Of a stretch of DNA of 64,000 nt, positions 5,951 to 62,694 are shown in pieces. Numbering within the stretch: position 1 is the first letter of the stretch; each line of letters begins with the position of its first letter. Position numbers and translations under genes: made by a program. The DNA is from Chryseobacterium sp. CY350. GTDB lineage: Bacteria > Bacteroidota > Bacteroidia > Flavobacteriales > Weeksellaceae. Where the stretch lies: NCBI RefSeq assembly GCF_027945075.1, contig NZ_CP116034.1, positions 620,001 to 684,000 on the forward strand, given 5' to 3'. The notes beneath the pieces are model-generated. The model was not told the origin of the DNA, ran no database searches, and was given only the letters and a program-made list of their open reading frames with translations.

Positions 5951-5956
5951 AATAAC

Positions 5957-6096
5957 TTAGAAATTAGAAGTAGATTTTAGAAATTAGTTTTAAAATTTGC
6001 TTTTAATCAAAGTTTTTCAGAAGATATAGATATTTGGAAGTGTGCACAATTTAATACAGGAAGTTGTAAAATTATCTTCTAAAATCTAATTTCTAA
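5957..6096 (+). repeat. Inverted-repeat element, apparently a decayed four-helix-bundle insertion
   Basis: The left arm (5957-5987, TTAGAAATTAGA type) and right arm (6077-6096) are complementary over about 18 of 20 positions with one gap. The arm starts seven bases after the HAD stop codon. Between the arms one frame (6002-6082) reads FNQSFSEDIDIWKCAQFN and ends in a stop inside the right arm. This faintly resembles the N-terminal pattern of four-helix-bundle/S23 proteins (F-x-D-L/I-x-I/V-W-x-x-A). The arm motif matches the one flanking the intact copy at 58232-58663. The repeat is certain; the remnant reading is tentative. Confidence 0.5.
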
Positions 6097-6109
6097 CATC
6101 TATATAAAA

Positions 6110-6919
6110 ATGATTCAATTAAAAACAATAGACGAGCTTCGTCTCATGAGAGAAAGTGCTCAGTTGGTTTCCAGGACATTAGGAATGTTGGCAAAGGAAA
6201 TCAAACCGGGAGTTACCACTTTATATTTAGATAAATTAGCTCACGATTTCATTAAAGATCATGGTGCAGAGCCAGCATTTTTAGGATATGGAGGTTTTCC
6301 GTATTCATTATGTATTTCGCCAAACGAACAGGTGGTTCACGGTTTTCCAAGTAAAGAAGAAATCAAAGAAGGCGATGTGCTTTCTGTTGATTGTGGTGCT
6401 GTTTTAAATGGTTTTGTAGGCGATCACGCATATACTTTTGAGATTGGCGAAGTAAAACCGGAAATCAAGAAATTACTTAAAGTTACAAAAGAATCTCTCT
6501 ATAAAGGAATCGAACAGTGTGTGCGAGGAAAAAGAATAGGAGATATTTCGCACGCTATTCAGACTCATTGTGAGAAAGAAGGGTATGGTGTTGTGAAAGA
6601 ATTAGTAGGTCATGGCGTAGGAAGAAAGATGCATGAAGATCCGCAGGTTCCTAATTATGGAAAAAAAGGGAGTGGTAAAGTAATCAAAGACGGTTTAACG
6701 ATCGCTATCGAGCCAATGGTAAATATGGGAACTGAAAAAGTGAAATTCCATAATGATGGCTGGACGGTTACAACTCTTGACAACCTTACTTCTGCTCATT
6801 TTGAGCATGATGTAGCTGTTATTAATGGCAAACCTGTTTTACTTTCTACTTTTAAATATGTTTACGAAGCTTTAGGAATCGTAAGTGATGAAGAGAAGCC
6901 ATTTCAAATGGATTTTTAA
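6110..6919 (+). CDS. map: Type I methionine aminopeptidase
   Basis: 269 residues. It removes the initiator methionine from nascent proteins. The five metal ligands of the pita-bread fold are visible: D in LSVDCGAVLNGFVGDHAYTF (two Asp), H in VGHGVGRKMHEDP, E in IAIEPMVNMG and E in SAHFEHDVAV. H in FPYSLCISPNEQVVHGFP is the substrate-binding histidine. There is no N-terminal zinc-finger extension. The stop overlaps the next start (TAATG), so it is cotranscribed with the methyltransferase. Confidence 0.96.
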   Translation: MIQLKTIDELRLMRESAQLVSRTLGMLAKEIKPGVTTLYLDKLAHDFIKDHGAEPAFLGYGGFPYSLCISPNEQVVHGFPSKEEIKEGDVLSVDCGAVLNGFVGDHAYTFEIGEVKPEIKKLLKVTKESLYKGIEQCVRGKRIGDISHAIQTHCEKEGYGVVKELVGHGVGRKMHEDPQVPNYGKKGSGKVIKDGLTIAIEPMVNMGTEKVKFHNDGWTVTTLDNLTSAHFEHDVAVINGKPVLLSTFKYVYEALGIVSDEEKPFQMDF

Positions 6920-26284: not shown

Positions 26285-27286
26285 ATGAAAGAATTTTCTA
26301 AAGAGGTATACCTGAAGTGGTATGAAGATATGACAATGTGGAGAAGGTTTGAAGACAAATGCCGTTCTCTTTATTTAAAACAAAAAATCAGAGGTTTTTT
26401 ACATTTGTACAACGGTCAGGAGGCAATTCCGGCTGGTTTTACGCATGCAATGGATTTAACTAAAGACAGCATGATCACTGCTTACAGATGTCACATTCAT
26501 CCAATGGCAATGGGGGTAGACCCGAAAAGAATCATGGCAGAACTTTGTGGTAAAGCCACAGGTACTTCCGGAGGTATGGGAGGGTCTATGCACATTTTTA
26601 GTAAAGAACACAGGTTCTACGGAGGCCACGGTATCGTAGGAGGTCAGATTCCTTTGGGAGCAGGTATTGCTTTTGCAGATAAATTTTTCGACAGAAAAGC
26701 AGTTAACATCTGTTTCTTTGGCGATGGTGCTGCTAGACAAGGATCTCTTCATGAAACATTCAATATGGCAATGAACTGGAAACTTCCGGTTGTTTTTGTT
26801 GTTGAAAACAATCAGTACGCGATGGGAACGTCTGTAAAAAGAACTGCAAACCATGAAGATATCTATAAATTAGGTCTTGGTTACGAAATGCCTTGTCTTG
26901 CTGTAGATGCGATGGATCCTGAGAAAGTTGCTGAAGCTGCTTACGAAGCTATTGAAAGAGCCAGAAGAGGAGACGGACCAACTTTTATCGAAGCAAGAAC
27001 CTATCGTTTCAGAGGCCACTCTATGTCTGATGCTGAACCATACAGATCTAAGGATGAAGTTGCTATTGCGAAAAAAGATGATCCGATCGAATTGATTAAA
27101 GAGAGAATCTTGCAAAATAATTGGGCAACTGAAGAAGAACTAGAAGCTACAGACAACAAATCGAGAGATTTCGTAGAAGAGTGCATCGAGTTTATGGAAA
27201 ATTCTCCTTACCCGACTGCAGAGAAAATCTATGAGTATGTTTACGCTCAGGAAAACTATCCGTTCTTAGATAAATTAGAAAATTAA
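26285..27286 (+). CDS. pdhA: Pyruvate dehydrogenase E1 component, alpha subunit
   Basis: 333 residues. E1 alpha binds thiamine pyrophosphate and decarboxylates pyruvate together with the beta subunit. The TPP/Mg motif is FFGDGAARQGSLHETFNMA ... NNQYAMGTS; the conserved phosphorylation-loop region TYRFRGHSMSDAEPYRS and the start region RRFEDKCRSLYLKQKIRGF are present. Length and order match Gram-negative E1 alpha. The E2 gene follows after an 83-base gap; pdhB is not in this window, as in other Flavobacteriia where it is placed elsewhere. Confidence 0.96.
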   Translation: MKEFSKEVYLKWYEDMTMWRRFEDKCRSLYLKQKIRGFLHLYNGQEAIPAGFTHAMDLTKDSMITAYRCHIHPMAMGVDPKRIMAELCGKATGTSGGMGGSMHIFSKEHRFYGGHGIVGGQIPLGAGIAFADKFFDRKAVNICFFGDGAARQGSLHETFNMAMNWKLPVVFVVENNQYAMGTSVKRTANHEDIYKLGLGYEMPCLAVDAMDPEKVAEAAYEAIERARRGDGPTFIEARTYRFRGHSMSDAEPYRSKDEVAIAKKDDPIELIKERILQNNWATEEELEATDNKSRDFVEECIEFMENSPYPTAEKIYEYVYAQENYPFLDKLEN

Positions 27287-27300
27287 AAATTAATAATTAA

Positions 27301-27362
27301 TTTGATATTTGAATTTTGAGATGATCTAATCTCAAATCTCGAATCTTAAATCTCAAATCAAT
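27301..27362 (+). repeat. Short inverted and direct repeat in the pdhA-pdhC gap
   Basis: TTTGAATTTTGAGAT (27308-27322) is complementary to 27329-27343 at 12 of 15 positions around a six-base loop. AATCTCAAATC occurs twice about 21 bases apart (near 27328 and 27349). The style (repeats of AAATCTC/GAGATTT) resembles the arms of the inverted-repeat elements elsewhere in this window, without an ORF. Confidence 0.5.
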
Positions 27363-52956: not shown

Positions 52957-53676
52957 ATGAAACTTATTACAAGTCTTGGTTTTGTTTTGACGATGAGTCT
53001 TTTTAGCGCTCAGGAACACATTTCAGCTTTTAATGCTTTGACTGTAACGTATAAGTTTCATCCAAAATTCTTTCTCTACGCAGAAGGGCAGATGAGAGGG
53101 ATTGAAGAATATACTTATCCTGATTATTACGAAATAAAAGGTGGTTTGGGGTACAATCTGACCAAAAATCACAAACCATTCGTAGGTTTGGGAAGATACG
53201 CGACTTATAAAGATCACGCGATCGATAAAGAAGAATTCAGGATCTGGCTTCAGGATGTTATCGACTTTAAAAAAGGAATCGTAAAATTTGAAAATCGTTT
53301 CCGTGTAGAAAAATCTTGGTTTTACGAACCTAAGACCGATAAAAATTCTGAAAGAATGCGTTATCGTTACCGTTTAAATATTTCTGTCCCGTTAAACTCA
53401 AAAAAAATAGCACCTGGTACTTTGTTTGCCAATGTTTATGATGAAGTTTTCTTCGTAACACCGATGAAGCCTTCATTTTCGCGAAACCGTCTGTATGGTG
53501 GTTTTGGTTATCAGGCAGATGAGATTTTTGGGATTGTAACTGGCTATCTCTGGCAGAGAGAATTTGATGCGAAGGGAAACAAAAATGTACATTTTGTATA
53601 TTTAGCACTCAACATCAATATTGACGATACAAAAAATAACGAAACAAAAACATATCATTTCCCGGGAGCAGATTAG
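52957..53676 (+). CDS. DUF2490-family outer-membrane beta-barrel-like protein
   Basis: 239 residues. Signal peptide MKLITSLGFVLTMSLFSAQ. The mature protein is rich in alternating hydrophobic and charged residues (YKFHPKFFLYAEGQMRGIEE, FENRFRVEKSWFYEPK, RMRYRYRLNISVPLN), the pattern of DUF2490, a beta-barrel family common in Bacteroidota. It has its own likely -7 box (TATTTTTG near 52935). It follows the TonB receptor by 51 bases. Its stop overlaps the stop of the converging HD gene. Confidence 0.85.
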   Translation: MKLITSLGFVLTMSLFSAQEHISAFNALTVTYKFHPKFFLYAEGQMRGIEEYTYPDYYEIKGGLGYNLTKNHKPFVGLGRYATYKDHAIDKEEFRIWLQDVIDFKKGIVKFENRFRVEKSWFYEPKTDKNSERMRYRYRLNISVPLNSKKIAPGTLFANVYDEVFFVTPMKPSFSRNRLYGGFGYQADEIFGIVTGYLWQREFDAKGNKNVHFVYLALNINIDDTKNNETKTYHFPGAD

Positions 53677-54119
53677 TATTTCTCAGATAAATACCGGTAA
53701 GCTTTCAGATATTTATTGAATCGGTGAATGTCTTTAGAAGTCAACTCACGGTTTACTCTTCTCAGATCCATATTATCGCGCAGATCATTTAGTTTTACTG
53801 CAACTGCCAAGGGCGATCTTTCAGTTCTCTTTACAAAGTCATCGTAAATTTCATCCGGATCATATTTCGTAAGGCAACTTACAGCATATAAAATATATTC
53901 GGGGAAACCTTCGTTTCTTAAAAATTCAATACTGAAATCTTGTGGATTATCCTCAACAACATCGTGGAGAACTCCGACAATTTTTTCGTCCATGGTTTTG
54001 CCATATTCCATAACACGCATTACGTGAGCAATATATGGAGCATGGTATTTATCTTTTTGACCTTTATGTGCTTTATCAGCTATTTTTATGGCTTTATGTA
54101 GAAGTTCTTCTTTTGTCAT
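53673..54119 (-). CDS. HD-domain (p)ppGpp hydrolase-like protein (MESH1/small SpoT-like)
   Basis: 148 residues. H of KAHKGQ (metal ligand), the HD pair in VGVLHDVVEDNPQD (about residue 52) and D in KLNDLRDNMD match the hydrolase half of RelA/SpoT. No synthetase domain is present, so it would be a small alarmone hydrolase or a related nucleotide phosphohydrolase acting in the cytoplasm. Substrate is inferred from the family only. The stop codon (TAA, minus strand) shares bases with the stop of the DUF2490 gene. Confidence 0.87.
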   Translation of the reverse strand: MTKEELLHKAIKIADKAHKGQKDKYHAPYIAHVMRVMEYGKTMDEKIVGVLHDVVEDNPQDFSIEFLRNEGFPEYILYAVSCLTKYDPDEIYDDFVKRTERSPLAVAVKLNDLRDNMDLRRVNRELTSKDIHRFNKYLKAYRYLSEKY

Positions 54120-54220
54120 CGCTATTTAATAGAGTACAAAAATATAAAACGCCACAAAAAAACGGATGATTTTTAGCAAAATTTATCCACAATTTAAAAG
54201 TTTTAAAATTTCTGATCGCT

Positions 54221-54538
54221 TTATTTTTCAATTTCTTTTCTAAGCTTTTCGGGAGAAATTGAATTCAGCGTTTTATACTTCGAGTGATCTTTGTAAGAAT
54301 CTTTAAGACTAGAATAGACAATGGTATCCTTGGGTTTAGCAACAAGCATCTTATATGTTTTTAAAGGCTGTCTCAATGTATTAGCATAAGCTGTTAATAG
54401 CACGGAATCCTCCGATATTTGATGCTTCTGCATTAATTCCGGCTTGAAAAAATATGATCTCTTTAATGAATCTGTCTTTTTTTCCTGTGCCGAAAACGTT
54501 ACGCTCATCAATAGAATTGTACCGCAAATAATTTTCAT
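54221..54538 (-). CDS. Hypothetical secreted small protein
   Basis: 105 residues from ATG 54538; a TTG six bases earlier is unlikely. A signal peptide (MKIICGTILLMSVTFSAQ) is followed by a hydrophilic helical segment with no known motif (KKTDSLKRSYFFKPELMQKH, then YANTLRQPLKTYKMLVAKP). Probably periplasmic. It stands alone on the minus strand between the HD gene and the acyl-CoA dehydrogenase gene. Function unknown. Confidence 0.55.
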   Translation of the reverse strand: MKIICGTILLMSVTFSAQEKKTDSLKRSYFFKPELMQKHQISEDSVLLTAYANTLRQPLKTYKMLVAKPKDTIVYSSLKDSYKDHSKYKTLNSISPEKLRKEIEK

Positions 54539-54748
54539 AATCAATTTTTTTTTCTAAAATACAAAATATTAATTTAAACAAATATTACTTTTAAACAAAA
54601 TTCTCAATAATGAGATTTAATGATGTCGATATCTCAATAATTTGCTGCACTTAAATTTGTACTCTTAAATTATTGAAGGAAAAAAAAATCTGACTGGCTC
54701 TATTAACCAATCAGATTTCTAAAAATTTTTATTTAAACCGATTTAAGC

Positions 54749-56524
54749 TTAGTAATGACCTTTCGTGATGAAGTGCGAAGCTACTTTTTCAGTTAAAGAA
54801 ACAACATTCGGGCTATTCGTATACTTGGTAAATCTTCTCAATCCTGAAAGCATCATTCTCTGCTCATCGCCTTCAGCAAAGGAAACTATTCCTTCTTTTG
54901 CAGCAGAAATAATTTTATCGATTGCTTTATATAGATTTAACTGAGCCATTGCTGCTTCCACAGAATCAGCAGAAAAATGTTTTTCTGCTCTTAAAACTGC
55001 AGATTCTGCCATGTAGATTTGATTAAGAATTTCTGAAGCATTAAGCAATAGATGTTGTTGCTTCTCTATATCCATCATGTATTTTTGAAGAGCAGCACCA
55101 GAAACCATTAAGAAAACTTTCTTAAGATTGGCAATGATTGCTTTTTCTTCACTCATAAATGCTGAATAGTCTGGAACTTCAAATGATGGAATTCCCATCA
55201 ATTCTTTGCTGATCGCCATAGCGGGAGAAAGTAGATCTAATTCTCCTTTCATCGCTCTCTTTATCAGCATTCCTACTGCGAGAAGTCTGTTGATCTCATT
55301 TGTCCCTTCATAGATTCTTCCAATTCTGGCATCTCTCCATGCAGCTTCCATCGGAGTATCTTCCGAGAATCCCATTCCTCCATATACCTGAATTCCTTCA
55401 TCTGCAGTATTCTGAGTAAGATCAGAAACATATACTTTAAGAATGGAAGCTTCTACAGCAAATTCTTCAACACCTTTTAATTCAGCCTGTTGATGATCCA
55501 TTCCTCCGGAAACTAATTCCTGGATTTTATCCTCAACATCTTTTGCCAAACGGTAAGAACCCGCTTCACTTACGAAAACGCCGGTCGCCATTTCAGCAAT
55601 TTTCTTTCTGATTGCTCCAAAGGTCGAGATAGAAACCCCAAATTGTTTTCTCTCATTTGAATATTGAATAGAGTGGTTCAAAATTCTTCTCTGTCCGTCA
55701 AGATTTGCAGCAGCTAATTTAATTCTGCCTACATTTAATGCATTCAAAGCGATTTTAAAACCATTATTTCTCTCGCCTAGCATATTTTCCACAGGAATTT
55801 TCATGTCATTAAAGAAAACCTGACGAGTAGAAGACGAACGGATACCAAGTTTGTGTTCTTCTTCCCCGAAAGATAAGCTGTTCGGGTCTTCCAATTCTGA
55901 GCGGTTAATTACAAAACCTGTTATGTTTTTATCATCATCAATCTTTGCGAACAAGGTGAATGTATCTGCAAAACCTGCGTTAGAAATCCACATTTTTTGT
56001 CCGTTAATGATGTAATGTTTTCCATCTTCAGACAATTTCGCTCTTGTTTTCCCGGAATTTGCATCAGAACCAGCATCAGGTTCTGTCAAGCAATAAGCAC
56101 CGAATTTTGTTCCTGTAGCTAAGTCTGGAAGGTATTTCTTTTTTAGTTCTTCACTTCCATATAGAAGAGTAGGCAATGTTCCGATTCCCGTATGAGCCCC
56201 GTAAGCGGTTGCTAATGAACCGTTTCCACCAGATACGTAATCACAAGCCAACATTGTACTGACGAATCCCATCCCAAGTCCGCCATATTCTTCAGGAACG
56301 GTAATTCCAAGAAGTCCCATTTCGCCCAATTTGCGCATTGTCTCTTCAGTGAGTGCATAATCTTTTTTCTCAAAACGCTCGTGGTGAGGAATAACCTCTC
56401 TGTCGATAAATTCTTTTGCAGAATCACGAAGCATTTTTTGTTCTTCTGAAAGTTCTTCTAAAGTGAAGATTTCGTTTGCAGAAACTTCTTTAATAAGAAA
56501 TTCGCCGCCTTTTAAATTTGACAT
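54749..56524 (-). CDS. fadE: Acyl-CoA dehydrogenase
   Basis: 591 residues. It catalyses the FAD-dependent first step of fatty-acid beta-oxidation. The FAD-binding block AYCLTEPDAGSDANSGKTRA and the substrate/FAD site WISNAGFAD are typical; the catalytic Glu is in GRIYEGTNEINRLLAVGML, and GIQVYGGMGFSEDTPME precedes it. The C-terminal ~170 residues beyond the standard ~380-residue core (from about residue 420) are the extra helical domain of the very-long-chain/ACAD9-like type. It is the last gene of the beta-oxidation operon, behind an inverted-repeat insert carrying a four-helix-bundle ORF. Confidence 0.93.
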   Translation of the reverse strand: MSNLKGGEFLIKEVSANEIFTLEELSEEQKMLRDSAKEFIDREVIPHHERFEKKDYALTEETMRKLGEMGLLGITVPEEYGGLGMGFVSTMLACDYVSGGNGSLATAYGAHTGIGTLPTLLYGSEELKKKYLPDLATGTKFGAYCLTEPDAGSDANSGKTRAKLSEDGKHYIINGQKMWISNAGFADTFTLFAKIDDDKNITGFVINRSELEDPNSLSFGEEEHKLGIRSSSTRQVFFNDMKIPVENMLGERNNGFKIALNALNVGRIKLAAANLDGQRRILNHSIQYSNERKQFGVSISTFGAIRKKIAEMATGVFVSEAGSYRLAKDVEDKIQELVSGGMDHQQAELKGVEEFAVEASILKVYVSDLTQNTADEGIQVYGGMGFSEDTPMEAAWRDARIGRIYEGTNEINRLLAVGMLIKRAMKGELDLLSPAMAISKELMGIPSFEVPDYSAFMSEEKAIIANLKKVFLMVSGAALQKYMMDIEKQQHLLLNASEILNQIYMAESAVLRAEKHFSADSVEAAMAQLNLYKAIDKIISAAKEGIVSFAEGDEQRMMLSGLRRFTKYTNSPNVVSLTEKVASHFITKGHY

Positions 56525-56552
56525 ATTATTTATTTTTTTTATTTTTTGTCTA

Positions 56553-57045
56553 AGACAGATAGATAATAGACATATAGATGATAGATTTTGATGGAATAAT
56601 CTATTATCTGCCTGTCTATATTTTTTTATGCTTTTAATGTGTTCTGAAATACCATTGTTGCTTTTTGAAATTCTTCGATTTTAATTTCAAAAAATTCACT
56701 TCTTTCATCAGATAAATATTTTCTATGATTTGCCAGCATTATTTGTGTCTGCAATTCAAACGATGAGCCTAAAGAAATATCTAAAAAATGACTAAAAGAC
56801 TTGTTTGTTCTGCTTGAACCTTCAGCTATATTTGATGGGATTGAGATTGAACATCTGTCCATTTGACTCTTCAAACCATATTTTTCATAAGCTGGAAAAG
56901 TATCTGTAAGATCTAATGTAAATTTTGATAACTCCAAACCCATCTGCCAAATTTTAAGTTTTTTAAAATTGTGCCTTTTAAAATCATTCATCTTTCTTGT
57001 GTGCTTTTACTATCTATTATCTATCTGTATATTATCTCATTGTCT
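56553..57045 (-). mobile_element. Inverted-repeat element with four-helix-bundle ORF, fadA-fadE junction
   Basis: Arms 57012-57045 and 56553-56586 are complementary at 28 of 34 positions (motif AGATAATAGA). The first arm overlaps the last bases of the fadA stop codon. A second local stem (AGACAGGCAGATAATAGA with its complement, 16 of 18 positions, at about 56555-56618) stands after the ORF. The 366-base ORF lies in the loop. Similar layout to 58233-58663, but the arm sequences differ. No transposase is present, so mobility is inference. Confidence 0.45.
56626..56991 (-). CDS. Four-helix-bundle (S23/IVP, bAvd-like) protein, copy 2
   Basis: 121 residues. The signature of the four-helix-bundle family (TIGR02436, S23 ribosomal-intervening-sequence protein) is seen in FKKLKIWQMGLELSKF, LKSQMDRCSISIPSNIAEGS, FSHFLDISLGSSFELQTQ. 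Family members form pentameric barrels; the related bAvd works in diversity-generating retroelements, and IVS-encoded S23 proteins lie in 23S rRNA genes. It differs strongly from the copy at 58284 except for S-I-P-S-N-I-A-E-G and the following helix. It is inside the fad operon and enclosed by inverted repeats. Confidence 0.88.
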   Translation of the reverse strand: MNDFKRHNFKKLKIWQMGLELSKFTLDLTDTFPAYEKYGLKSQMDRCSISIPSNIAEGSSRTNKSFSHFLDISLGSSFELQTQIMLANHRKYLSDERSEFFEIKIEEFQKATMVFQNTLKA

Positions 57046-58222
57046 ATAGAAGCTCAAAGATCGAAGCTGCTCCCTGTCCAGTCCCCACACACATAGAAAC
57101 CATTCCGTATTTATTTCCACGCTTTCTCATTTCATCAAGAAGCTGAACGGTTAATTTTGTTCCCGTACAACCAAGTGGATGGCCGAGTGCTATTGCGCCT
57201 CCGTTGACATTCAAAATATCAGGATTTAAGTTTAATTCTTTTTTAATCGCAACAGATTGTGAGGCAAATGCTTCATTTAATTCGATCAATTCAATATCTT
57301 TTAGTTCTAAACCAGCTTGTTTCAGAGCTTTTGGAATTGCATAAATCGGTCCCATTCCCATAATTCTTGGTTCTAAGCCTGCTGCTGCATACGCGACCAA
57401 TCTTGCTTCAGGTTCCAGACCAAGTTCTTTCACCATTTCTTCAGACATTACGATCACAAAAGCTGCTCCGTCACTCATTTGCGAAGAGTTTCCTGCTGTA
57501 ACTGAACCTCCGTTTGCGAATACAGGCTTTAATTTAGCCAAACCTTGCAAAGAGGTGTCTAATCTTGGACCTTCATCTACTGAAAAGTCAAACTTTTTGG
57601 TCTGCATTTTTTGATTTTCATCTAAAAAATTATATTCAACAGGAATCGGAACTATTTGATTGGCAAATTTACCTTCCTGATTCGCTTTTAAAGCTTTCTG
57701 ATGAGATTCGAACGCAAATTGATCCTGTTCTTCTCTTGAAATATTAAATTGTTTTGCTACTTCTTCTGCGGTGTAGCCCATTCCCCAATAATAATCTGGG
57801 TTAGACTTTGCGATGTCTGTTTCAGGAACTGGTTTGTAACCACCCATTGGAATGTAAGACATTGATTCTGTACCACCTGCGATAATACAATCAGCCATTC
57901 CTGCCTGAATTTTTGCAGACGCGATCGCAATTGCTTCACTTCCTGATGCACAATACCTATTTACGGTAACTCCGGGAACTTTGTCTGTATTTAATCCCAT
58001 AAGAGAAATTAAACGTGCAACATTTAATCCCTGTTCAGCTTCTGGCATTGCGTTTCCAACGATTAAATCATCCACTCTGTCTTTATCTAACTGTGGAACT
58101 GCTGCCATTAATTTTTCTATGACAGTTGCTGCCATTACATCGGGTCTTGTGAATCTTAGACTACCTTTTGGAGCTTTTCCAACGGCAGTTCTAAAACCCT
58201 TTATTATATATGCTTGTTTCAT
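57044..58222 (-). CDS. fadA: Acetyl-CoA C-acyltransferase (3-ketoacyl-CoA thiolase)
   Basis: 392 residues. It cleaves 3-ketoacyl-CoA to acetyl-CoA and a shortened acyl-CoA. The acyl-carrying Cys is in VTVNRYCASGSEAIAIA (about residue 90); the second site Cys is in MVSMCVGTGQGAA and the His in NGGAIALGHPLGCTGTKL. The block KGSLRFTRPDVMA at the N-terminus is typical. Third gene in the operon. Its stop codon lies inside the arm of the downstream inverted repeat, and its start is 11 bases after the end of the upstream repeat. Confidence 0.95.
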   Translation of the reverse strand: MKQAYIIKGFRTAVGKAPKGSLRFTRPDVMAATVIEKLMAAVPQLDKDRVDDLIVGNAMPEAEQGLNVARLISLMGLNTDKVPGVTVNRYCASGSEAIAIASAKIQAGMADCIIAGGTESMSYIPMGGYKPVPETDIAKSNPDYYWGMGYTAEEVAKQFNISREEQDQFAFESHQKALKANQEGKFANQIVPIPVEYNFLDENQKMQTKKFDFSVDEGPRLDTSLQGLAKLKPVFANGGSVTAGNSSQMSDGAAFVIVMSEEMVKELGLEPEARLVAYAAAGLEPRIMGMGPIYAIPKALKQAGLELKDIELIELNEAFASQSVAIKKELNLNPDILNVNGGAIALGHPLGCTGTKLTVQLLDEMRKRGNKYGMVSMCVGTGQGAASIFELL

Positions 58223-58232
58223 TTTTTTTATT

Positions 58233-58663
58233 TTAGAAATTAGAAATGAGAGGTTAGAGGTTAGAATCTAACCTTTCATTAAATTAATTTTGAATTTGTA
58301 AATCATCTTTTGAATTTCCATTAAAACAATTTAATAGAGGCAGAATTTCTTTTTCGCTTTTGAAATCTAGTTCAACTAATAAAAGCAGTTGAGTTTCTAA
58401 TTCATAGCTTGAACCATTTGCAATACCTAAAAATTGATAAAATTCTTTAGGATTATTTCTTCCTGCTCCTTCAGCGATATTAGAAGGGATGGAAACTGCA
58501 CATCTTCTGATCTGTGAAATAAAACCATACTTTTCAGTAGACGAAATGTTTTCAGTTAAATAATAAATATCTTTAACTGAAATCATGGACTTTTGCCAAA
58601 TAAGTAAATCTCGTAATCTGTGCGTTTTCATCTAACTTCTAAATTCTAATGTCTAACTTCTAA
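58233..58663 (-). mobile_element. Inverted-repeat element with four-helix-bundle ORF, fadB-fadA junction
   Basis: Arms 58632-58663 and 58233-58264 are complementary at 26 of 32 positions (27 if one G-U pair counts). The first arm (repeats of TTAGAAGTTAGA type) starts within the fadB stop codon. The ORF ATG is one base inside the arm. A local palindrome AGGTTAGA-A-TCTAACCT follows the ORF. The arms share no clear identity with those of the downstream element. No transposase; mobility is inference. Confidence 0.45.
58284..58631 (-). CDS. Four-helix-bundle (S23/IVP, bAvd-like) protein, copy 1
   Basis: 115 residues. LRDLLIWQKSMISVKDIYYL at the N-terminus, FISQIRRCAVSIPSNIAEGA in the centre and YQFLGIANGSSYELETQLLL match the four-helix-bundle family. 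Its start codon is directly against the 3' end of the upstream arm, so a ribosome site must lie inside the repeat. It keeps normal codons and an intact frame, so it is probably expressed. Function is unknown; members in rRNA intervening sequences and retroelements bind nucleic acid. Confidence 0.88.
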   Translation of the reverse strand: MKTHRLRDLLIWQKSMISVKDIYYLTENISSTEKYGFISQIRRCAVSIPSNIAEGAGRNNPKEFYQFLGIANGSSYELETQLLLLVELDFKSEKEILPLLNCFNGNSKDDLQIQN

Positions 58664-61053
58664 TTACGAAGCGGTTTCCCTTTTTGCAACATAAACTGAA
58701 TTCTCTCCAGAGTTTTTCTTTCCCCACAAAGCTGTAAGAAAGTCTCTCTTTCTAAATTCAGTAAATATTGTTCGGTTACAACAGTGGGTTCCGAAAGATT
58801 TCCGCCCACTAAAACATTTGCTAATTTATCAGCGATGAGTTTATCATGTTTTGAGATGAAATTTCCTGTCAACATTTGATCTGTCCCCACGTAGAACATT
58901 CCTAAAGCATCTTTCCCCAGAACTTTTACAGTTTGTTCGATTGGCTGAGTATATCCGTGTTCTGCCAAACTTTTCGCCATCATTTTAGCAGTCATGATCT
59001 GACGCTTTTTATCAACAACCACAACATCTTTTCCTTTTTCAAGAATTCCCATATCATACGCTTCATAAGCTGAAGTTGCAACTTTACCCATCGCAATATT
59101 CATAAATGCTTCACGAAGTCTGTTGTTTTTCACATCATCAGTATGAAATTCTCTTGAGGTTCTAAGAGCAAACTCTTTCGTTCCACCACCACCAGGAATT
59201 ACACCAACTCCGGTTTCAACAAGTCCTACATAAGTTTCTGCGGCTGCGACAACTCTGTCTGCGTGCATAGTCATTTCGCAACCACCGCCTAACGTCATAC
59301 CGTGAGGAGCAACTACGACAGGAATTGAAGAATAACGAACTCTCATCATTGATTTCTGGAAATACGCAATTGCCATATTCAGATCATCCCAATCCTGCTC
59401 AATAGCCATCATTAAAATCATTGCTAAATTGGCTCCTACAGAGAAATTTGCACCCTGGTTTCCGATAACTAATCCATCGTATTCTTTTTCAGCTAAATCA
59501 ATCGCTCTGTTCAAACCATCTAAAACTTCGCCACCTAAAGAATTCATTTTAGAACGGATCTCAAAATTGATAATTCCGTCTCCCAAATCTTCAATTGAAG
59601 AACCGGAATTACTCCAAAGGGTTTTGTTTTTTCTGATATTATCTAGAATGATAAATGATTCCTGACCCGGGATATTGTTGTAGTTTCCTGAGTTTTTATC
59701 AAAGAAAATACTTTGTCCGTCCTCATTTACTTTATAGAAAGATTCTACATTTTTCACCCAATCAGATACTTCATATCCGGCGTCCTTAGACAATTCGATT
59801 CCTTTCTGAACTCCAACGGCATCCCAAATTTCGAAAGGTCCGTTTTCCCAACCGAAACCTGCTCTCATCGCATCATCGATTTTATAAACTTCATCAGAAA
59901 TTTCAGGGACTTTGTGAGAGACGTAAGCAAATAACGCTCCCAGAGATTTTCTATATAATTCTCCTGCTTTATCTTTACCACCAATTAATACTTTGAAACG
60001 GTCAATTGGTTTGTCGATATTTTTCGTTAATTCTAAAGTCGGGAAAGAAGATTTTCCCTGAAGTTCATATTCTAAGGTGTCAAGATTTAATCCGTGAATT
60101 TCAGATTTCCCGTCACTACCTTTTACTTTTTTATAAAAGCCCTGTTCAGTTTTTGATCCTAGCCATTTATTGCCAACCATTTTCTGTACATATTCCGGAA
60201 GAGCAAAAACGTCATAAAAATCATTTTTTTCGACGCCGCTGTCACGAACGCCACTCGCCACCATCACCAATGTATCAAGACCAACAACATCAGCTGTTCT
60301 GAAAGTTGCAGATTTCGGACGCCCGATAATAGGACCTGTTAATTTGTCAACATCAGAAACATTTAGACCTAATTTCTGAACATTATGAAGAAGATCCATC
60401 ATCGAGAAAACTCCAATTCTGTTGGCGATGAAAGCTGGAGTATCTTTAGCTAAAACCGTAGTTTTGCCAAGAAATTTTGATCCGTAAGACATATAGAAAT
60501 CTACAATTTCGGGATCAGTTTCTCTTGTTGGAATGACTTCCAAAAGCGGCAAATATCGCACAGGATTAAAAAAGTGCGTTCCAGCAAAATATTTTTTAAA
60601 ATCATCACTTCTTCCTTCCACCAACATATTAATTGGAATTCCTGAAGTGTTGGAAGAAACCAACGTTCCTGGCTTTCTGAACTGTTCAATTTTTTCGTAA
60701 ACTGACTTTTTAATGTCAAGTTTTTCGACAACAACTTCAATAACCCAGTCGGTATCTTTTATTTTTGCTAAATCGTCATCAAAATTTCCCACTTTAATAC
60801 GTTCTGCAAACTTCGGAGAATAGAGTAGTGCAGGACTTGCTTTCTTCAGTTTTTCAAAGTTTTCTGAAGCAATTCTGTTTCGAACTGCTTTATCATCCTT
60901 TGTCAAACCTTTTTTCTGTTCGGAGTCATTCAATTCAAACGGAACAATGTCGAGCAATGAAACCTGCACGCCGATGTTGGCAAAGTGTGCAGCAATACCG
61001 CTTCCCATAATCCCTGAACCTAAAACTGTTACGTGTTTGATTCGTCTTTTCAT
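58660..61053 (-). CDS. fadB: Bifunctional 3-hydroxyacyl-CoA dehydrogenase / enoyl-CoA hydratase
   Basis: 797 residues. The order is dehydrogenase first and hydratase last, the reverse of E. coli FadB. The NAD-binding site is VLGSGIMGSGIAAHFANIGV; the catalytic His-Glu region is FAGTHFFNPVRYLPLLEVIP. The second C-terminal dehydrogenase-like repeat is AMRAGFGWENGPFEIWDAVG. The hydratase half (about residues 490-720) has the oxyanion-hole block NFSVGANLAM and GMTLGGGCEMTMHADRV, with the catalytic Glu in VETGVGVIPGGGG. It does the two middle steps of beta-oxidation. First structural gene after MarR. Confidence 0.93.
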   Translation of the reverse strand: MKRRIKHVTVLGSGIMGSGIAAHFANIGVQVSLLDIVPFELNDSEQKKGLTKDDKAVRNRIASENFEKLKKASPALLYSPKFAERIKVGNFDDDLAKIKDTDWVIEVVVEKLDIKKSVYEKIEQFRKPGTLVSSNTSGIPINMLVEGRSDDFKKYFAGTHFFNPVRYLPLLEVIPTRETDPEIVDFYMSYGSKFLGKTTVLAKDTPAFIANRIGVFSMMDLLHNVQKLGLNVSDVDKLTGPIIGRPKSATFRTADVVGLDTLVMVASGVRDSGVEKNDFYDVFALPEYVQKMVGNKWLGSKTEQGFYKKVKGSDGKSEIHGLNLDTLEYELQGKSSFPTLELTKNIDKPIDRFKVLIGGKDKAGELYRKSLGALFAYVSHKVPEISDEVYKIDDAMRAGFGWENGPFEIWDAVGVQKGIELSKDAGYEVSDWVKNVESFYKVNEDGQSIFFDKNSGNYNNIPGQESFIILDNIRKNKTLWSNSGSSIEDLGDGIINFEIRSKMNSLGGEVLDGLNRAIDLAEKEYDGLVIGNQGANFSVGANLAMILMMAIEQDWDDLNMAIAYFQKSMMRVRYSSIPVVVAPHGMTLGGGCEMTMHADRVVAAAETYVGLVETGVGVIPGGGGTKEFALRTSREFHTDDVKNNRLREAFMNIAMGKVATSAYEAYDMGILEKGKDVVVVDKKRQIMTAKMMAKSLAEHGYTQPIEQTVKVLGKDALGMFYVGTDQMLTGNFISKHDKLIADKLANVLVGGNLSEPTVVTEQYLLNLERETFLQLCGERKTLERIQFMLQKGKPLRN

Positions 61054-61154
61054 CTATATATTATTTATTTTTTTTGATGCAACCAAACGGTTTTTGTAAA
61101 TTTCATTTATTACTACCGTCTCCAGCTCTTTTATTTTGATCTTGCTAAACTTTA

Positions 61155-61607
61155 CTATTTTCTGTTGTTTAGATCAGCTGCTATTTTCATAATTTCAGTC
61201 ATGACCTCTTTAAAAGTTTCAAGTTTTTCGGGAGCGATCTTCTCCATCACCTTTTTATTAAAATTCACGACAACTTCCTTAGACATATTTCTTGAGCTTA
61301 AACCTTTATCAGTAAGCTTTATAATTACTTCACGCTTATCGGTAGTGGTTTTTTCTTTATAAATGTATCCGTTATCTTCAAGAAGTTTAATAATTCTTGT
61401 GAGCGAAGTAGGCTCAATCGCCATTTTGGGACCTAGATTTGTACTCCTCGTTCCTTCTTTGGGATCAATTTTTAGTAACGTAAGAGCTTGAACCGCTGTA
61501 GAATCATGCTCCTGAGCAAGCTCAGTGTACATTTTTGAAACGGCCAACCAAGTTTGTTTTAGAATAAGATCAACATTCTCTGTTTTTTCTTTATTGTTAT
61601 CCATCAT
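61155..61607 (-). CDS. MarR-family transcriptional regulator
   Basis: 150 residues. The winged helix centres on AVQALTLLKIDPKEGTRST, MAIEPTSLTRIIKLLEDNGY and TTDKREVIIKLTDKGLSS. The Asp-Lys-Arg in the wing is typical of MarR proteins. Two TATGCATGCATA palindromes lie in its promoter, so it probably represses itself and the beta-oxidation genes that follow on the same strand, releasing on binding an acyl-CoA or similar ligand, as FadR-like MarR proteins do. Ligand is inference. Confidence 0.92.
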   Translation of the reverse strand: MMDNNKEKTENVDLILKQTWLAVSKMYTELAQEHDSTAVQALTLLKIDPKEGTRSTNLGPKMAIEPTSLTRIIKLLEDNGYIYKEKTTTDKREVIIKLTDKGLSSRNMSKEVVVNFNKKVMEKIAPEKLETFKEVMTEIMKIAADLNNRK

Positions 61608-61629
61608 TTTTTTTGCTAATCGGTTTTAT

Positions 61630-61637
61630 CAAATGTA
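61630..61637 (-). promoter_or_regulatory. -7 box of the MarR-fad operon
   Basis: TACATTTG on the minus strand, 22 bases before ATG 61607. The operator at 61646-61657 lies eight bases upstream, inside the spacer where sigma would bind. Confidence 0.5.
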
Positions 61638-61645
61638 GCAAATAT

Positions 61646-61657
61646 TATGCATGCATA
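61646..61657. promoter_or_regulatory. MarR operator, proximal
   Basis: TATGCATGCATA, a perfect 12-bp palindrome, placed between the expected -33 and -7 positions of the MarR promoter. Confidence 0.6.
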
Positions 61658-61724
61658 GCATTATCATCAGTTAAAATATATTAACTAATTGATTTACAGT
61701 TGAATAAAAAGTATGATAAGCATA

Positions 61725-61744
61725 ATACTATGCATGCATAGTAT
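61725..61744. promoter_or_regulatory. MarR operator, distal
   Basis: ATACTATGCATGCATAGTAT is a perfect 20-bp palindrome with the same TATGCATGCATA core, 79 bases from the proximal site core. Two copies of one palindrome in a MarR promoter strongly suggest repressor binding sites. Confidence 0.65.
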
Positions 61745-61770
61745 ATAGAATAAATAAATAATTTACTGAT

Positions 61771-62694
61771 TTAATGAAGGTTTGCAATTAATTTGACTAT
61801 TTCTTCAAAAGATTCACATTTGTACAAATTATAGTGATGCGAAATCTCCCAAATTGATTCATTTAATCTAAAGTTGAAGGATGATAAATCTTTTTGAAAG
61901 TTTTTTTGAAGCAAGGAATACAGCATTTCCTTCTGAATTAGAGGAGAATCTATAGAAGGTGCAACAAAATCATCATTAATCTGAAATAGCGAAACATCGG
62001 TAAGCTCGTCGTGTTGTAGCAGAACATCTTCCACAATGCCAGAATACAAATGGTGGTCTTTTATATACCACATTTTATCGGCAAATTCTTTTGCCAACCT
62101 CCAGTCATGGGAAGAAAATAAGATAATTTTGTTTTGTTGTTTTGCTAATTTTCTAAGCGTTTTGAGGATGATGAGTTTATTTTTTTCATCAAGATGTGTT
62201 GTCGGCTCATCCAGAATAATAATCTGAGAATTTTGTGTAATAGCTCTTCCTATAAATGCTTTCTGCAGGTTTCCATCTGAAAGATTTTTGAGCAGTGTAT
62301 TTGTATATTGACTTAAATCTAATTCCTGAATAATCTCTCTAACTTCCTCTCTGTCATTATTTTTCAATTCAAAATAAAAAGGATAGTAGATGTATTTTCC
62401 CAAAGAAATAAGATCTTCAACAGTATAATTTTGCGGAATGGTTGATTTTGAAAAAACAACAGCAATATTTTTAGCAATCTCTTTTACTGAAAGATTTTTT
62501 ACATTTTTATTATCAATAAAAATTTCTCCCTTTAATAAAGAAATTTGATGGAGAATTGATTTAATTAAAGTGGTTTTTCCTACACCATTGTTACCAATCA
62601 AGAGACATACTTCTCCTAAATTCAAATCTGCATTTGCATCTGAAATTAAAGTTTTGTCGTAACCTATATTGGCATGATTGATTTTTAGGTGCAT
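61771..62694 (-). CDS. FecCDE-type ABC transporter ATP-binding protein
   Basis: 307 residues, ABC domain in the first ~220. Walker A LLIGNNGVGKTTLIKS, Q loop and a variant signature LSDGNLQKAFIGRA (the usual LSGGQ has a D-G-N), Walker B IIILDEPTTHLDE, switch His LFSSHDWRLAKEF. The permease partner precedes it by nine bases. Family relatives import iron-siderophore, heme or cobalamin. The C-terminal ~80 residues (from about DVSLFQINDDFVAPS) are an extension not found in FecE/BtuD. Confidence 0.9.
   Translation of the reverse strand: MHLKINHANIGYDKTLISDANADLNLGEVCLLIGNNGVGKTTLIKSILHQISLLKGEIFIDNKNVKNLSVKEIAKNIAVVFSKSTIPQNYTVEDLISLGKYIYYPFYFELKNNDREEVREIIQELDLSQYTNTLLKNLSDGNLQKAFIGRAITQNSQIIILDEPTTHLDEKNKLIILKTLRKLAKQQNKIILFSSHDWRLAKEFADKMWYIKDHHLYSGIVEDVLLQHDELTDVSLFQINDDFVAPSIDSPLIQKEMLYSLLQKNFQKDLSSFNFRLNESIWEISHHYNLYKCESFEEIVKLIANLH

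Follow-up and report, generated by a model that had tools for sequence, protein, structure and literature searches.

Intervening sequences (IVSs) that code for proteins of the S23/IVP family occur in the 23S rRNA genes of Leptospira and other bacteria, and excision by RNase III has been reported for 23S IVSs. The short tandemly repeated repetitive sequences (STRRs) of cyanobacteria are heptanucleotide repeats. The 23S IVS of Coxiella, as given in the portions of PMC4990558 consulted, is 428 nt long and holds an S23 open reading frame (ORF) bounded at its two ends by inverted repeats some 28 bp long, with tandem GACAGAT heptamers directly before the ORF. Other heptanucleotide repeats, TAACTGA (PMC4679880) and GGGAATC (PMC4692102), were published without a known mechanism, and 70 cases of paired inverted heptamer arrays are recorded for Xanthomonas campestris in the parts of these two papers that were searched. 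Genes named 23S_rRNA_IVP are listed among the CRISPR-Cas-associated functions of cas loci in the section of PMC3936711 consulted, and the Avd/bAvd proteins of diversity-generating retroelements have a related four-helix-bundle fold, according to an extract of PMC10053308. The present analysis concerns a stretch of 64,000 nucleotides (the window) of Chryseobacterium sp. CY350, whose genome is one contig of 4.09 Mb, and in it two S23/IVP genes located between the cistrons of a fad operon. The data suggest that small genes, usually lying in mirror-image repeats of about seven letters, are repeatedly gained, lost and swapped between co-transcribed genes, and that the 23S rRNA inserts are part of this wider exchangeable class.

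On the minus strand of the window the gene order is fadB–S23–fadA–S23–fadE. The element of the fadB–fadA junction encodes a protein of 115 aa (58284..58631) and that of the fadA–fadE junction one of 121 aa (56626..56991), both identified by profile match and belonging to different clades (S5 and S3). Both exceed the curated cut-offs of the two family models, the 115-aa and 121-aa proteins scoring 114.1 and 105.3 bits with PF05635 (cut-off 33.8) and 103.3 and 92.6 with TIGR02436 (cut-off 24). An earlier note on this DNA had described two S23/bAvd-like ORFs of 115–121 residues at both fad junctions; the S23 assignment stands, the bAvd model matching only the 121-aa protein, at 25.4 bits against a cut-off of 40, and giving no match to the other. 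The combination typical of diversity-generating retroelements, a bAvd match over the cut-off together with a reverse transcriptase, is thus lacking in the window inserts, and in both respects they differ from Avd/bAvd systems. The reverse transcriptase model PF00078 (RVT_1) finds no match in the CY350 genome, and a resident reverse transcriptase was discarded as the mover of the elements.

Each S23 gene is enclosed by complementary arms, all read on the minus strand. The 5' arm of the fadB–fadA element (58632..58663) starts inside the fadB stop region, so that the fadB stop codon belongs to it, adjoins the S23 start codon and consists of tandem 7-bp units TTAGAAG/TTAGACA; the 3' arm (58233..58264) is complementary to it at 26 of 32 aligned positions. 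In the fadA–fadE element the 5' arm (57012..57050), of the GATAGATAATAGA type, is built loosely of 7/8-bp units; it overlaps the stop codon of fadA and pairs with the 3' arm (56549..56586) over about 38 aligned positions with small gaps. Complementarity scores of 17.0 (fadB–fadA) and 20.5 (fadA–fadE) were obtained, against maxima of 15.5 and 13.5 in 2000 dinucleotide-preserving shuffles of the 150-bp flanks, none of which reached either value; the doubt raised in the earlier note, that shuffled AT-rich DNA might do as well, is removed. Its estimate of arms complementary over 32–34 bp was about right, apart from the mismatches, and its statement that the two arm pairs share no sequence agrees with the different sequences found, yet both pairs are TAGA-rich. 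What it missed is the tandem organization of the fadB–fadA arms, whose period of seven is significant on each side (p=0.003, the minimum of the test); for the looser fadA–fadE arms the test gives p=0.13 (5' side) and p=0.00997 (3' side). The Coxiella arrangement, in which tandem heptamers precede the ORF, is thus seen in the fadB–fadA element.

The flanking genes match FadB, thiolase and FadE type models: the fadB-type cistron (58660..61053) lies upstream, the fadA-type thiolase cistron (57044..58222) between both elements and the fadE-type cistron (54749..56524) downstream, all on the minus strand. At most of the junctions inspected, the insert begins at the upstream stop codon or a few bases from it and stops just short of the following start codon. 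The likeness to the Coxiella IVS (PMC4990558, in the portions consulted) comprises the S23 ORF between inverted repeats, the size (428 nt there, 430–520 bp here) and, at fadB–fadA, the heptamers before the ORF. Unlike 23S IVSs, the elements described here, known from sequence alone, are located between protein-coding cistrons, occur as several clades in one genome and are repeatedly replaced at one site. Since the window inserts sit between fadB, fadA and fadE and not inside a 23S rRNA gene, they are referred to as IVS-like and not as IVSs.

A known structured RNA was rejected as an explanation, Rfam giving just two sub-threshold matches at 53000–62000, neither on the inserts, and so was a phage-borne origin, one S23 protein giving no match by tblastn in 50,697 phage records. 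Elsewhere in the window an ORF-less intergenic hairpin (5955–6110), some 150 bp long and with arms of the TTAGAAATTAGA type, folds at -34.0 kcal/mol, and two facing period-7 arrays lie in an intergenic gap at 27269–27361, the window's only ones at that threshold besides the fadB–fadA arms. In another part of the CY350 genome (840880–841185) an S23 gene is interrupted by two internal stops.

The two junctions were compared in 36 genomes of the genus (two sets of loci, 30 + 6); fadB–fadA was read in 36/36 and fadA–fadE in 35/36, one locus (L033) having no readable fadA–fadE junction. Between fadB and fadA an S23 gene of clade S0 was found in 13 genomes, of S5 in two and of S6 in two; a gene of the Y1_Tnp family (PF01797; one protein scanned), flanked by hairpin-like ends of its own, in 11, a 139-aa ORF with no Pfam match in two, an AbiC-like protein of 344 aa (PF16872) in one, an ORF-less insert in four and a bare gap of 27 bp in one. 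Between fadA and fadE the S23 genes belong to clades S2 (eight genomes), S3 (five) and S4 (five), the remaining junctions containing a YhcG-type nuclease, a 185-aa ORF with no family assignment and a 64-aa ORF (one each), an ORF-less insert (12/35) or a bare gap of 33 bp (2/35). For the non-S23 inserts one protein was scanned per larger cluster, the 64-aa ORF being excluded from the scan. On a quick host-gene tree, with support from the SH-like approximate likelihood ratio test only, these contents need at least 20 changes at fadB–fadA and 17 at fadA–fadE, or 11 at each when scored simply as S23 versus non-S23. The window genome differs at both junctions from its nearest tree neighbour (L007), although their FadA proteins are 98% identical. 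The inserts are therefore not stable operon genes, and the outcome named in the earlier note as fatal to a mobile element, every relative filled and with the same arms, did not occur. The bare, filled and replaced sites, together with an architecture shared with S23-coding 23S IVSs, bear out its proposal of a family of intercistronic elements.

The Y1_Tnp (IS200-like) genes at fadB–fadA (L011 and ten more loci) are flanked by agctccgtaggagc-type hairpins and occupy the gap used by S23 elsewhere. Genes of defence type share these gaps as well (L007, L008), AbiC-like at fadB–fadA and a YhcG/DUF1016 nuclease at fadA–fadE. S23 elements resemble the REP/RAYT system of repetitive extragenic palindromes and Y1_Tnp (PF01797) genes in having a small gene between palindromic ends, together with ORF-less copies, and the two kinds meet in the same fadB–fadA gap. 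They differ in that S23 elements have no transposase and their arms are 7-bp tandem arrays, the RAYT ends being single palindromes. Neither window insert codes for a transposase, the S23 ORF being the sole family match in each, and PF01797 has no match in either, which sets them apart from REP/RAYT.

The association with heptamers extends to S23 genes at large, of which 167 were compiled (164 from the genus; L042, L043 and L048 come from other families of the order) and 93 added from elsewhere. The second set includes two duplicates of genus-set proteins (L209, L210) and one Chryseobacterium entry (L246); S23 matches with short domains or flanks (L211 and L278 among 80) and three fragment places (in G032, G069 and G111) stand outside these sets. 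It was found that S23 genes tend to carry tandem arrays of about 7 bp on their flanks, usually inverted across the gene, with units that vary between clades and genomes, and that in many bacteria the 7-bp period concentrates at these genes. Moreover, 163 of the 167 genes sit between two genes of the same strand, and all 167 occupy just 30 locations; one and the same location can hold unrelated S23 clades. For the S23 protein dN/dS (the ratio of nonsynonymous to synonymous divergence) is 0.05–0.10, against 0.02–0.03 for fadA, which indicates purifying selection.

Three S23 genes lie within cas operons of cyanobacterial plasmids, in the contexts cas6–S23–cas4 (L289, L292) and cas10–S23–Cmr3 family (L302). 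Period 7 is significant in L289, where the arrays are direct and not inverted, and in L292, and is not significant in L302. Like the 23S_rRNA_IVP genes of cas loci they are located inside operons; in contrast to their listing among CRISPR-Cas functions in the section of PMC3936711 consulted, they look here like another intercistronic site.

Within families one repeat motif is kept on both arms, and close S23 relatives at different sites mostly have their arms in common. In a set of 39 element types, S23 pairs of at least 60% protein identity at different locations share arms more than permuted pairs do (15.2 versus 8.5, p=0.0002; only six pairs, four of them with arms in common), and at 50% identity or more the result is p=0.0022 (23 pairs). 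The same-location figure of 17.8 from this second motif test cannot be used, since conserved flanking genes fall within the compared segments.

A connection with rRNA operons was observed as well. The sequence TTAGAAGTTAGA occurs 20 times in the CY350 genome, against six for the reversed control; five copies lie in the 16S–tRNA spacer of rRNA operons (one of them, L309, checked with Rfam), and two others (L320, L323) in ORF-less, hairpin-like inserts flanked by same-strand genes. Thirty genomes of the genus were searched for this spacer, which was readable in 23, CY350 included; L433 was discarded because its spacer contains N, and L435–L440, which are incomplete tRNA matches in six genomes, were set aside. 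In 23/23 a short insert of 60–104 nt is present at the same position between the 16S rRNA gene and the first tRNA (L411–L434), and its repeats differ between genomes. The inserts are all ORF-less, and for 17 of the 23 the match to an S23 arm exceeds that of each of 40 shuffles, with six S23 locations supplying the best-matching arms; compared with the same inserts read backward, the forward match is better in 17, worse in four and tied in two.

What the sequences establish is the architecture and how often it recurs among bacteria, the turnover of contents at the two fad junctions, the orientation in the operon sense, the selection on the protein and the arms common to most close pairs (four of six) at different sites. 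We consider it somewhat better than an even chance that each insert is an exchangeable S23 element, consisting of an S23/IVP gene flanked by two arrays of a unit of about 7 bp that mirror each other, filling the gap from stop to start in the sense of the operon. In such an element the arms would pair in the mRNA and form a long stem around the S23 cistron; RNase III could cut this stem as reported for 23S IVS RNAs, and the flanking cistrons would keep their own start regions, so that gaps and rRNA operons would tolerate the element. Such elements probably live in transcripts from which they can be excised at little cost, in intercistronic gaps and in rRNA operons; the sense orientation, the stop-to-start placement and the enclosing arms fit this reading. 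The S23 protein, a solved relative of which is an assembly of five four-helix bundles, would bind its own arm motif and help the element to spread or persist; such binding would most simply explain why the two sides of the gene carry the same motif. The ORF-less hairpins may be non-autonomous derivatives.

Several observations weigh against an exchangeable S23 element. The arms are unlike in two of the six same-clade pairs at different sites, and a first permutation test of motif against clade was opposite in sign (4.16 shared 8-mers observed, 5.60 permuted), its null being unsuitable because orthologous pairs were mixed in. The suggestion of the earlier note that it is the RNA pairing which has been conserved found no support: arms of the same insert are no more complementary than arms from different orthologs (better in 68 cases, worse in 56, tied in two; sign test p=0.32), so no covariation within ortholog families attests RNA pairing. 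Only 9/23 spacer inserts self-fold above the shuffle maximum, although 17/23 match an S23 arm. The fadA–fadE arms of the window are merely loosely periodic, none of the five inserts of their clade reaches p<0.01 (under another windowing), and the exact 13-mer GATAGATAATAGA is found nowhere else in the CY350 genome. Just 4/16 ORF-less junction inserts match S23 arms clearly above shuffles. Synonymous divergence (dS, saturated pairs having fallen out) is higher in the insert than in fadA in two of five families (S0, 1.56 versus 1.20; S2, 1.14 versus 1.01) and lower in three (S3, 0.70 versus 1.40; S4, 0.82 versus 0.95; Y1_Tnp, 0.50 versus 0.91), so recent transfer is supported for some families only. 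The data show neither a transposition intermediate nor a target duplication, nor any polymorphism within a species; the bare and filled sites compared are from different species and differ over the whole gap.

The link between gene and array is also incomplete. No significant period 7 was detected on either side in 61/167 and 32/93 S23 genes, and other intergenic segments of the same loci were positive in 30/191 and 14/107, so the arrays are not exclusive to S23; 3/11 Y1_Tnp inserts are period-7 positive at one end. Heptamer arrays also occur in the two sampled genus genomes with no PF05635 match (one array per 200-kb sample in G091, two in G154). Across the samples of eight genomes, where period 7 is still the commonest lag, array number does not track S23 copy number: one array in CY350 (five copies), G065 (13) and G176 (12), two in G117 (one copy), three in G124 (12 copies; one run of N removed) and five in G101 (13). 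This persistence and lack of proportion limit the proposal that S23 binds the arms; the arrays of the S23-free genomes and the undetected arm covariation speak against a strong causal role.

These arrays in S23-free genomes and other intergenic DNA favour a reading that we regard as unlikely, though the best placed of the rivals, namely that tolerant gaps passively collect small inserts, S23, transposase-type and defence genes being exchanged by interspecies homologous recombination and the heptamers arising by local polymerase slippage with no special tie to S23. The Y1_Tnp, AbiC-like, YhcG and family-less genes in the same gaps point the same way, and slippage has been proposed for heptamers in the part of PMC4692102 searched. 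It does not account for the concentration of period 7 at S23 genes in many bacteria, and slippage leaves unexplained both the same motif inverted on the two sides of a gene and the arms common to S23 relatives at different sites. That the S23 gene and stem form a device inside the operon, kept for the host and setting the stability or relative output of the fad cistrons, is improbable: strict sense orientation and purifying selection would suit it, but at the same junction close relatives have a different S23 clade, some other gene or no insert at all, so that no constant function in the fad operon is visible, and further S23 genes are located in unrelated operons. A stable ordinary operon gene with AT-rich flanks complementary by chance, to which the recurrence of S23 genes in few locations might be thought to speak, can be set aside as extremely improbable, given the bare, ORF-less and replaced sites, the unrelated clades at one site and arms above all shuffles.

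Beyond the exchangeable S23 element itself, it is tempting to propose, with rather less confidence, that S23/IVP proteins are dedicated partners of heptanucleotide arrays throughout bacteria. One superfamily would then comprise the 23S IVSs, the intercistronic and cas-operon S23 genes and at least part of the orphan arrays (STRRs, TAACTGA, GGGAATC) as autonomous and non-autonomous forms, each clade with its own motif of about 7 bp. Tandem 7-bp units in intergenic DNA are common to these repeats and the arms described here; unlike the present case, the portions of PMC4679880 and PMC4692102 searched draw no link to S23. In the open-access literature searched no paper was found that ties S23/IVP genes in general to heptamer arrays, and the Coxiella IVS paper, in the portions consulted, notes heptamers in one element. 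The role of the S23 protein and the origin of bacterial heptamer repeats are two questions treated apart in the literature found. If the association is true, it would give each question a partner and make both testable at the bench; it would explain why S23 genes appear in operons as different as those for rRNA, fatty acids and CRISPR, and would advise caution against counting the S23 genes of cas loci as cas genes.
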